From positions 1 through 36,339 of the IMG/VR virus record IMGVR_UViG_3300034012_000421: a stretch of DNA of 36,339 bases. The stretch is one strand, 5' to 3'. A program made the position numbers and the translations under genes. How positions within the stretch are numbered: position 1 is the first letter of the stretch; each line of letters starts with the position of its first letter. Below the pieces are notes generated by a model. It searched no databases. It worked only from the letters and a program-made list of their open reading frames with translations, and was not told where the DNA came from. Shown one piece after another: positions 26,643-29,308 of this stretch. Origin of the DNA: a virus.

Positions 26643-27641
26643 CTATGCCTGAAAACTTCCTCGGTTATCAAAGTCAATTCTCGCCCCTATCCTCTCCACA
26701 AACTGCTGACTTAGACTGTCGTACCAAAGTCCGTACCATTCCTGACCGTCACCATTCCTCTGCTTCTCGCACATTAGGAAAGTATCCGGCTGAGTCTCGT
26801 CTATCTGCTCACCCCGGTTCTTCTGGTTTTCTTTTTTCTTGTTTCTCCAAACCAAAAAGACGTTATCCACCTGATCCGAGATACTTCCAGACCCTTTAAG
26901 GTCGTTCTTGTTCGGCTGTGTCTCGTCCGACTGCTGCTTGCGGATATGGTGGACTAGATGAATATGGACGTTATGATCCCTAGCCAATGCCGTTAGCTCG
27001 TCGATAAACGATTTCTGACCGTTGAAGTCATCCTCGTTCTTGACGCACTTCATCAGGCTGTCGATAACGATATGCTTGACCTTTAGCTCAACAGCGCAGT
27101 ATCTCGACATAGCAATCACCTTCTCCGGTGACGTAGTTCCCTGCTGGTCGTAAAGATACATCTTGTCGGATAGAAACTTGTCCATCCGGTCAACCATCTT
27201 CGTGATAAATCCTGCCCTGTCATGCGTCAACGGATCATCCAGAGATTCCCCGGAGAACTGTCTCAGCATCCTCTGTAGCGTCCTCTCAGGCTTCATCTCA
27301 AACGATGCTATGCAGACTGATTGACCCTGCTTGACCAGACTCAACGCTATCTGACCCGTGATGAGCGACTTACCACCACCGTTAGAACCAGCGTATACAG
27401 TTACCTCACCCTCACGATAGGCAAAGGAATCATGTGTCTTAGTCCAAGGCATAACGACTTTCTTCTCTACCGTTTCCGACAGGTAAGCATCTTTGATGGA
27501 ATCTAGCCAGTCAGAAGCCTTCTTGACCCGTATCGTTACGTCGTTGGAATGTAGATACTTCTCAACGTCAATACTCTCTGACTTTAGGATTCGAGCCTTC
27601 CTAGCCTCGTCTAGTTCTATTGCCCGTGATTCAAGACTCAT
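26643..27641 (-). CDS. DnaB-like replicative helicase (C-terminal type)
   Basis: 332 residues. It has a Walker A AGSNGGGKS (84-92), SFEMKPERTLQRML (113-126, the catalytic Glu), Walker B VKHIVIDSLMK (188-198), the LVHHIRKQ sensor region and GSGSISDQVDNVFLVWR for subunit contacts. The N-terminal domain of DnaB is reduced to about 60 residues. It unwinds DNA at the fork; the partner is probably the zinc-finger protein encoded next to it. AGGGGAAACT precedes the ATG. Confidence 0.85.
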   Translation of the reverse strand: MSLESRAIELDEARKARILKSESIDVEKYLHSNDVTIRVKKASDWLDSIKDAYLSETVEKKVVMPWTKTHDSFAYREGEVTVYAGSNGGGKSLITGQIALSLVKQGQSVCIASFEMKPERTLQRMLRQFSGESLDDPLTHDRAGFITKMVDRMDKFLSDKMYLYDQQGTTSPEKVIAMSRYCAVELKVKHIVIDSLMKCVKNEDDFNGQKSFIDELTALARDHNVHIHLVHHIRKQQSDETQPNKNDLKGSGSISDQVDNVFLVWRNKKKENQKNRGEQIDETQPDTFLMCEKQRNGDGQEWYGLWYDSLSQQFVERIGARIDFDNRGSFQA

Positions 27642-27649
27642 AGTTTCCC

Positions 27650-28078
27650 CTAGTTAATGTAACTAACAGCTTCGTTGATTCTGGATACAGCCGTTTTAAG
27701 CCGTTTTCTGTCTACTTCCGATACCTGCCTACCCTCGCTCAAATCAAACGCCGCTACGGACGTTAGAAGTGCCTCAAATTGGATTATTTTCAGCAAGTCT
27801 GATGCGTAAAACGGTCTTCGGACTGGTTTATTAAAATGTTTTTCCTTGAGGGAACTTAGATTGTTGTCGTTAGGAAATAGGTCTGTCAAGTCCATTCCTA
27901 CCGCTTCAACGACTTGTTGCGCTGAACATCCGGCAAAGCACTTGAGCAGGATTCGACCATCATCAGTCTCCGTTATGGCAAGGCTTGGCGATCTATCAAC
28001 GTGAGCAGGACAGCAAGCTACCCACCTACCTTTTGAGCCTTTAACCTTTTCCAGCTTGTTTAGTAAATCGCCAATCAT
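27650..28078 (-). CDS. Primase-type CHC2 zinc-finger protein without a catalytic domain
   Basis: 142 residues. GRWVACCPAHVDRSPSLAIT followed by DGRILLKCFAGCSAQQVVEA is the CHC2 zinc finger of DnaG or T7 gp4-type primases, with Cys 23, His 26, Cys 47 and Cys 51. The rest is a helical C-terminal part with no TOPRIM or other primase catalytic motif. It may recognise the priming site and work with the host primase, or act only in helicase loading. ATGA overlap with the initiator gene. Confidence 0.75.
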   Translation of the reverse strand: MIGDLLNKLEKVKGSKGRWVACCPAHVDRSPSLAITETDDGRILLKCFAGCSAQQVVEAVGMDLTDLFPNDNNLSSLKEKHFNKPVRRPFYASDLLKIIQFEALLTSVAAFDLSEGRQVSEVDRKRLKTAVSRINEAVSYIN

Positions 28079-28797
28079 AGAACTCGTCTCCCCATAGAAA
28101 CATTGACGTTAGGTACGACCTCATCTTTCCATCGTTTGCCATTGAGCCATGTTGACGCATGAGGAACGTATTGAACATCTTTGGTAAGCAATCCTTGTTC
28201 ACGTACAGCATTTATCAACATAGAAACAAATGTTTCATCGACTTTTAATTTCTTAAATGCTTTCCAACCGGCTTCTTTAGCTTTCTTGTTTGGATAGACA
28301 TTCCAGAATTTCAAAAAATGATCGTTATATTCTTCTTTTGAAGATGAAGATGAAGATGAAGATGAAGATGAAGATGAAGATGAAGGGGTTGGATTTTGCT
28401 TAACCTCTTGGATAACCTTAAGGTTAACCTTATCACCATTTATTAGTGCTGGATTTCCACCGAGTTTTCCACCTAAAGCTCTGATTTGTCTAAGGCTTTC
28501 ATCCCGGATCATCCTACGGCTGCATATAGTCCCATCTTCAGTAAGGTCATAGACACCTGCATGATGTAGCTCTTTTAGCCAACCTTCGACAACCTCTAAG
28601 GTTTCCCCAACCATACGGGCAAGGTTTACTGGATGGATAACCTTATCCCCAACCTTAAGATGTCCGTAAGGATTACCTTCGTGCATGAAACAGATCATGT
28701 CTATCCATAGACCTCTGGCTCCTGTTGAGCATGACCTTAGTGCCGTATCCCTCAGCCAATCGGAGGGATAGAACTGGAATGATGGACGTTTAGGCAT
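28075..28797 (-). CDS. Replisome organiser / initiation protein with poly-serine linker
   Basis: 240 residues. The N-terminal winged-helix-like part (FQFYPSDWLRDTALRSCSTG, then ARGLWIDMICFMHEG, LARMVGETLEVVEGWL) resembles phage replication initiators (DUF1376-type). Next come 15 serines in a row and a C-terminal domain (FWNVYPNKKAKEAGWKAFKK, then VPHASTWLNGKRWKDE) like that of phage DnaD or helicase-loader proteins. The poly-serine stretch is coded by a six-base repeat. It likely binds the origin and brings in the helicase encoded downstream. Confidence 0.72.
   Translation of the reverse strand: MPKRPSFQFYPSDWLRDTALRSCSTGARGLWIDMICFMHEGNPYGHLKVGDKVIHPVNLARMVGETLEVVEGWLKELHHAGVYDLTEDGTICSRRMIRDESLRQIRALGGKLGGNPALINGDKVNLKVIQEVKQNPTPSSSSSSSSSSSSSSSKEEYNDHFLKFWNVYPNKKAKEAGWKAFKKLKVDETFVSMLINAVREQGLLTKDVQYVPHASTWLNGKRWKDEVVPNVNVSMGRRVL
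28339..28385 (-). repeat. Hexanucleotide microsatellite (GAAGAT on the plus strand, about 7.7 copies)
   Basis: The plus strand reads GAAGAT seven times from 28340 and then GAAG. On the coding strand it gives alternating TCA and TCT codons, so 15 serines. Length changes by one unit would add or remove two serines without breaking the frame. It lies inside the initiator gene, where an origin could also lie. Confidence 0.85.
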
Positions 28798-29005
28798 TTG
28801 GAGGCTCCTGAATCAGCCCCTCGTTCCAATCGTTGACCATTTCATCGTGGAAATCTTCAATCAATTGCTTAACGTGATAAGCCTGTCCGGGAGTCAAAAC
28901 TACAGTTACTTCCTTGCCAAATTCAAAACTATCTTGCTTTAACACTAAGCAACCTACGTCGCTGATGTAAACCTCTAATCCTTCTGATCCACGAAATTTC
29001 AACAT
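28790..29005 (-). CDS. Small acidic protein at the head of the replication operon
   Basis: 71 residues, starting MLKFRGSEGLEVYISDVGCL, with a late helix (PGQAYHVKQLIEDFHDEMVN). The ATG at 29003-29005 follows a GGA-type site; a TTG four codons upstream is the alternative. It is the first gene after the structured RNA at 29019-29099 and overlaps the initiator start by 8 bases. Function unknown. Confidence 0.6.
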   Translation of the reverse strand: MLKFRGSEGLEVYISDVGCLVLKQDSFEFGKEVTVVLTPGQAYHVKQLIEDFHDEMVNDWNEGLIQEPPNA

Positions 29006-29018
29006 AGCTTTTTCCAAT

Positions 29019-29099
29019 AAAAAAAGCCCTAGGAGAGACTCTCACCGATTAAGGTGTTGGCAGACTGGTAGGTAACCAGCAGAGTCCCTTCTAGGGCTT
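29019..29099 (-). ncRNA. Structured leader RNA ending in seven Us (attenuator or small RNA)
   Basis: On the minus strand, AAGCCCUAG (29099-29091) pairs with CUAGGGCUU (29032-29024) over 9 bp. One mismatch later AGGGACUCU (29089-29081) pairs with AGAGUCUCU (29042-29034) over 9 bp with one G-U. Two hairpins lie inside: CUGG-UUACCUA-CCAG (29079-29065) and CACC-UUAAUC-GGUG (29056-29043). The result is a three-way junction followed by seven Us, 14 bases before the first replication gene's ATG. It could stop transcription conditionally before the replication operon or be a stable small RNA. Confidence 0.6.
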
Positions 29100-29131
29100 A
29101 CCTGTTATCGCGCTGCCAAGCACGAGTAAAA

Positions 29132-29308
29132 CTATACCTTGATCTCTCTTAACTGGCAAATCTTACAAACATTGTGTTCCTTGAACTGTCCTGCTGATCT
29201 GGACTTTTTACAGCCGTAGCAATAACGTAGGCCAAATTGGTATTGCTTAGTCGTTCCAGTTTTGTCGCTTGACGTTGGAGCTAAGGATTTTGAAGGTTCT
29301 TCTTTCAA
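29132..29308 (-). CDS. Small zinc-finger protein, start uncertain
   Basis: 58 residues from a TTG at 29306-29308 with GAGG eight bases upstream. The end, YCYGCKKSRSAGQF and NVCKICQLREIKV, carries two Cys-x-x-Cys pairs 14 residues apart. It overlaps the gene at 29247-29405 by 62 bases in another frame, so one of the two may start elsewhere. It is not a strong match to any family I know. Confidence 0.45.
   Translation of the reverse strand: MKEEPSKSLAPTSSDKTGTTKQYQFGLRYCYGCKKSRSAGQFKEHNVCKICQLREIKV

Follow-up and report, generated by a model that had tools for sequence, protein, structure and literature searches.

Promoter-proximal termination in a short leader gates phage operons in the lambda pR'-tR' system, with its 6S leader and Q antitermination, and in phage P4, with its replication-operon leader and CI RNA. 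In phage HK022 the put RNA, a pair of stem-loops behind an early promoter, acts in cis and prevents termination; HK022 has two put sites. Rfam also holds a phage RNA without assigned function, int-alpA (RF02996). The IsrK RNA of the Salmonella prophage Gifsy-1 has a promoter and a terminator of its own; reportedly, read-through makes IsrK the 5' part of an mRNA, and its alternative structures involve the ribosome-binding site (PMC4825925).

The RNA described here lies on the minus strand, approximately from position 29125 to 29019, of the window, by which we mean the whole 36,339-nt stretch of viral DNA that was analysed (IMG/VR record IMGVR_UViG_3300034012_000421). It is an uncatalogued leader RNA of about 105 bases, found before the DNA-replication genes of many freshwater phages. 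That these RNAs form a family and share a compact double-pseudoknot fold we regard, on comparative sequence evidence, as nearly certain. With IsrK it would have in common the prophage setting, its own promoter and terminator, the read-through into an mRNA and the alternative structures involving the ribosome-binding site; IsrK, however, acts through antQ and not at a replication operon, and in the part of its description considered (PMC4825925) no double-pseudoknot three-way junction appears and kinship to the new RNA is not apparent. The likeness to the lambda and P4 leaders is the promoter-proximal termination in a short leader gating a phage operon, but there Q protein or antisense pairing is needed, neither of which is seen here, and no conserved double-pseudoknot fold is known from them. 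The put RNA is likewise a structured, cis-acting RNA directly behind a phage early promoter. A pseudoknotted three-way junction which ends in a terminator differs, however, from the two-stem-loop put fold, and the new RNA, being the terminator itself and having two pseudoknots, was rejected as a member of the put RNAs. In combining a pseudoknotted, aptamer-like junction with an intrinsic terminator directly ahead of the Shine-Dalgarno sequence (SD), the RNA recalls a riboswitch; yet the genes behind it are replication or homing-endonuclease-like genes, not metabolic ones, and no antiterminator is visible in the predicted folds. The int-alpA RNA, here also found just before replication or HNH genes, differs in sequence and structure. 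Its RF02996 model gave no match to the new RNA and did match elsewhere in neighbouring phages, so the model works on this material.

Fold and covariation of the leader RNA

The predicted parts of the RNA, its promoter and the genes of the operon are given in Table 1. In the first-pass annotation the segment 29099-29019 had been read as two outer helices separated by a single mismatch, enclosing two inner hairpins and ending in seven U residues. This fold is right: on the minus strand it reaches -40.4 kcal/mol with a z-score of -5.3, and none of 200 shuffled sequences folded equally well. The terminator stem P1 comprises two helices of about 9 bp on either side of an A·C mismatch, and the hairpins P2 and P3 are enclosed by it. 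The extent of the element was underestimated, however. The 5' hairpin P0 and both pseudoknots, PK1 and PK2, had been overlooked, and these are its most telling features; the 5' boundary is at about 29125, and extending the RNA to this position, by which P0 is added, gives a z-score of -6.4. The remark that simple terminators need no such fold was apt, as covariation marks the element as more than a simple terminator.

Table 1. Positions of the predicted RNA parts, the promoter and the operon genes in the window
Feature	Position	Strand	Details and basis
Sigma-70-type promoter	29131-29159	-	-35 TTGCCA 29159-29154, 17-nt spacer, -10 TATAGT 29136-29131; 10/12 match
P0, 5' hairpin	29108-29125	-	29125-29120 with 29113-29108; hexaloop UUGGCA 29119-29114; folding, two-sided changes in 5/6 pairs
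PK2 5' strand AGGUA	29099-29103	-	before P1; pairs with P2-loop UACCU 29074-29070; 96.5% of cells paired, two-sided changes in 4/5 pairs
P1, terminator stem	29025-29098	-	29098-29081 with 29042-29025; sole mismatch A29090·C29033; folding and covariation
P2, hairpin with PK2 loop	29065-29079	-	29079-29076 with 29068-29065; folding and covariation
PK1 3' strand UGCCAA	29057-29062	-	P2-P3 junction; partner is the P0 loop 29119-29114; all six pairs in each of 171 distinct RNAs
P3, hairpin	29043-29056	-	29056-29053 with 29046-29043; two-sided changes in 3/4 pairs
U7 tract, intrinsic terminator	29019-29025	-	seven T in the sequence; U4-U9 in relatives
P4, possible alternative helix in read-through mRNA	29007-29027	-	GCUUUUU (P1 3' end and U-tract) with AAAAAGC around SD; SD GGA 29015-29013
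First operon gene, 71 aa, function not assigned	28790-29005	-	ATG 29005-29003
Replication initiation/primosomal protein, second gene	28075-28797	-	PHROG 9327 (5.9e-22), PHROG 270 (3.9e-21)
Primase-like zinc-ribbon protein	27650-28078	-	replication operon
DnaB-like helicase	26643-27641	-	replication operon

Relatives were obtained from IMG/VR by fetching loci with the initiator gene and the 71-aa first gene, many of which carry the RNA, and by a context-free scan with a DNA pattern, which matched at least 120 stretches. About 170 distinct sequences were analysed, and the family has at least that many. In an alignment of 52 sequences (A1), 97.1% of the pair cells are standard pairs, and two-sided changes are seen in 30 of the 42 pairs (348 cells), compared with 21-47 two-sided cells when the partners were slid; no shuffle reached the real values. 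Five of the six helices, both pseudoknots included, show compensatory changes. P2 is invariant in A1 because the search pattern fixed it in most rows: the loci L081-L199 were chosen by a pattern fixing P2 and the PK1 3' strand, so that constancy at these two places is an effect of ascertainment. In the loci found through their proteins, which are free of this bias, P2 varies with compensation. Thus, two of them (L040 and L042) have GCGG/CCGU in P2 and UUGGUC/GACCAA in PK1, and a subgroup preceding DUF1376-type initiators has GCGAG/CUCGU or GUAGG/CCUAC in P2 together with UUGGUC/GACCAG in PK1. Further members have UUGGAA/UUCCAA or UGGGGA/UCCCCA in PK1, and the P2 stem types include GCUGG/CCAGU, GCGAG/CUCGU, GUAGGU/ACCUAC, GCACCG/CGGUGU, GGCGG/CCGUU and others.

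All distinct RNAs have a complete PK1, with seven loop types. For PK2 the longest helix averages 5.99 pairs with the RNA's own partner versus 3.69 +/- 0.07 with permuted ones. Of 102 distinct RNAs, 96 have one and only one mismatch in P1, which is usually an A·C or A·G located 8-9 pairs from the junction. Almost all conserved columns of A1 fall within P0, PK1, PK2, P1, P2, P3 or the U-tract. The G·U pairs number 80 and the A·C pairs 9; therefore, the minus-strand RNA is what selection acts on. Compensatory changes in relatives had been proposed beforehand as the check on the fold, and with the covariation in A1, PK1 and PK2 this check was strongly passed.

Promoter, terminator and gene context

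Of 137 loci, 3 have a -10 box with at least five of six matches in a control zone, but 95 have one before P0, where it mostly lies 10-13 nt upstream. Because of this near-fixed distance we place the start of transcription at the 5' edge of P0, which in the window would be at about 29124. The gene upstream varies among the loci, as judged by eye (Cro-like, MazG-like, small zinc-ribbon and others), and often stops within 10-20 nt of P0. In the window it encodes a zinc-ribbon-like protein of 58 aa (CxxC...CxxC; 29132-29308, minus strand), the TAG stop codon of which is located inside the -10 box. No match to this protein was found in Pfam or PHROG; relatives of it precede the RNA in several related loci.

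On the other side, the start codon of the first gene in the window begins 14 bases past the last T of U7, which agrees with the position noted before. The distance from the U-tract to the first start codon is 8-13 nt in most loci, with the SD in between, and 0-3 nt where the start codon was called upstream of the SD. The first genes come from many families unrelated to one another, with replication initiators in the majority (PHROG matches are to primosomal proteins, O-like initiators, DnaD-like loaders, ParB-like and HNH proteins), and therefore the fixed spacing is a property of the RNA. Of two sets of 80 initiator loci that were collected through the protein alone, 54 loci and 23 loci, respectively, carry the RNA, always on the strand of the gene, and it is single-copy in each phage record checked. 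The statement that it stands in front of the first replication gene has to be modified: it does head the replication operon, but the first gene is that for the 71-aa protein and the initiator comes second. Within the initiator gene a long serine-coding simple repeat (28311-28440, minus strand) is seen, with similar ones in some relatives; it is possibly a linker or an origin-like region.

Behind the U-tract, the sequence surrounding the SD shows complementarity to the P1 3' end of the same RNA (-6.99 kcal/mol, compared with -5.90 +/- 0.17 for permuted partners, a value reached in 0 of 300 permutations), and five control segments had no comparable effect (20 to 273 of 300). This predicted complementarity, termed P4, ties the RNA to the downstream gene. 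Since P4 would be made only after the U-tract, it can have no influence on termination and could matter only in the read-through message, in the predicted fold of which P1 persists and P4 is not formed.

Distribution and other RNAs at the same site

As expected from the first-pass annotation, in which no known Rfam family was recognised, no family of Rfam 15 reached its gathering threshold, and at E<=10 only chance-level matches appeared. A description of the motif was not found in the open-licence papers searched. BLASTN of the window region against phages gave no match, and with the RNA variants only MW202462 and MW202544 were found, two records of 34.7 kb out of 50,697 for phages; they come from one spring and probably represent the same uncultured phage. 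Both have annotated hypothetical ORFs on the opposite strand across the RNA (MW202462.1:33654-33896 and MW202544.1:14777-15019), which are probably spurious. The RNA variants had no match in plasmids. When 84,980 bacterial and archaeal genomes were scanned with the pattern, two of ten exact matches carried the RNA, in Polynucleobacter sp. UK-Kesae-W10 and in a betaproteobacterial MAG contig; the other eight look like chance. A covariance model found it in 1 of 186 genomes of the genus Polynucleobacter and in 3 of 398 of its family, the Polynucleobacter copy being included in both counts. Two Burkholderiaceae genomes (L404 and L405) have a divergent class I RNA, as we call the RNA type of the window, with a weak U-tract and before an HNH-like endonuclease gene. 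The carriers are almost all uncultured viral contigs.

Two loci without the class I motif (L008 and L036) have two hairpins with kissing loops at the same place. A pattern derived from them matched 23 stretches, and an alignment of 13 sequences of this class II (A3; L008, L036 and L217-L239) shows 100% pairing with compensatory changes in four of the seven kissing pairs, the loops being GUACGAG/CUCGUAC, GGACUAG/CUAGUCC, GUAACAG/CUGUUAC and others. Class II also has a promoter-like -10 box and a terminator and stands before unrelated first genes; its structure is supported by covariation, and it is unrelated to class I. A possible third type, represented by a single sequence, is a three-way-junction terminator in another locus (L065), within 330 bases upstream of position 566, in which segments of the leader are complementary to the loops of both hairpins.

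A number of loci (L011, L014, L015, L036, L164, L226 and others) have the int-alpA RNA, or look-alikes of it, a short distance before a replication initiator or HNH gene, and a few of them contain it together with a class I or II RNA. Owing to this co-occurrence, and to the different slot, int-alpA was rejected as a substitute class. In two class II phages (G195 and G197) a class I RNA is present as well, in front of another gene that differs between the two. In G195 it is located between ERF and an HNH-like/SSB-like pair (L403, G195:C1:4326-4434); the window has ERF and SSB side by side, and the RNA and the HNH gene may move together.

Proposed role in the replication operon

An attenuator or a small RNA before the replication operon had been suggested at the outset, and the covariation and the constant spacing to promoter and start codon are in line with this. 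We favour, with moderate confidence, a cis-acting attenuator in the operon leader in which a factor acting on the fold sets the read-through. Transcription would begin at the dedicated promoter with the first base of P0; as the RNA emerges, P0, P2 and P3 would fold, and PK1 and PK2 would tie the 5' leader to the interior of the terminator hairpin. P1 and the U-tract would then stop most transcripts, presumably at U7, leaving a compact RNA of about 105 nt. There is no room for a promoter between the U-tract and the SD, and so the operon would be expressed only when RNA polymerase reads through, at a level set by a factor that recognises the fold, such as a host protein, a metabolite or RNA polymerase itself. 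A second control on the read-through message may be exerted by P4 at the SD. A GC-rich stem and U-tract between the promoter and the first gene are indeed the arrangement of an attenuator. Against this reading count the lack of a competing antiterminator helix upstream of the terminator in the predicted folds, so that no switch as such can be seen, the weak U-tracts of a few members (for instance L404), the many initiator relatives which have no such RNA within up to 6 kb on either side, and the fact that an own promoter and terminator would also fit a stand-alone small RNA. A sensor of translation, one of the initial suggestions, finds no support, as the subfamilies have no leader ORF in common: ATG ORFs are found in the first 45 nt of only 93 of 169 RNAs, and an AUG common to one subfamily lies within P1 and is absent from the other. 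A trp-type attenuator was rejected for want of a conserved leader ORF.

The fixed 5' end and the own promoter and terminator would also suit a dual-function RNA of the IsrK kind, the short form of which acts in trans and the read-through mRNA of which is kept translationally silent, via P4, until activated. The complementarity of the SD region to the P1 3' strand is compatible with this, and a translationally inactive read-through transcript has a precedent in a prophage (PMC4825925). Nearly all conserved bases are paired internally, however, which leaves no conserved free seed, and the very stable P1 is kept in the predicted read-through fold at the expense of P4; we therefore consider such an RNA unlikely. 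A pure antisense small RNA was rejected, as A1 contains no conserved unpaired seed. Rather improbable is a stable stand-alone small RNA or protein sponge sited at the operon start, with leaky termination feeding the replication genes. Such an RNA would be compact, with hairpins at both ends, and present in a single copy per phage, as observed, and the conserved single mismatch in P1 could help it to avoid RNase III; but the constant 8-13 nt to the starts of unrelated genes points to cis action, and a stand-alone RNA would not need an SD region that coevolves with its P1, which supports the attenuator in cis.

A dedicated phage protein as the factor is hardly indicated, since no family is common to all of 22 carriers (best 14 of 22) within the sensitivity of BLASTP at 1e-4. 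The same result would favour a self-contained RNA or a host factor, such as a put-like leader which, by direct binding to host RNA polymerase, renders it resistant to termination. The position right behind the promoter would also suit this, as would the two phages with RNAs of two classes before two operons; yet the RNA itself ends in a terminator, and class I carriers have one copy only compared with the two sites of HK022, and we think it quite improbable. That upstream genes often end within 10-20 nt of P0 could suggest a plain terminator of the upstream gene, a DNA cruciform or an origin element. This would leave the pseudoknot covariation, the excess of G·U over A·C pairs, the strand bias and the fixed promoter unexplained and is extremely improbable. 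Going beyond the attenuator reading, one may imagine a self-contained RNA gate, in which unrelated and interchangeable RNA cassettes (the double-pseudoknot class I, the kissing-loop class II and perhaps more) let a host molecule or RNA polymerase control replication without a dedicated phage protein, the 5' leader clamping the terminator loop by tertiary contacts; we put this forward as a doubtful idea.

Summarizing, this is a new RNA family whose structure is strongly proven by comparative evidence and whose function is proposed from its features. From the fold with its pseudoknots, the own promoter and the stop signal at the end we conclude that it is probably the leader RNA on which the switching-on of the replication genes depends. 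The family is widespread, with at least about 170 distinct sequences, and nearly invisible in isolate genomes; with an architecture that is clear and open to test, it sits where phage DNA replication is decided upon. Thereby it becomes testable whether phage replication is gated by an RNA sensor that needs no dedicated protein, and nature offers several RNA designs for the same site.
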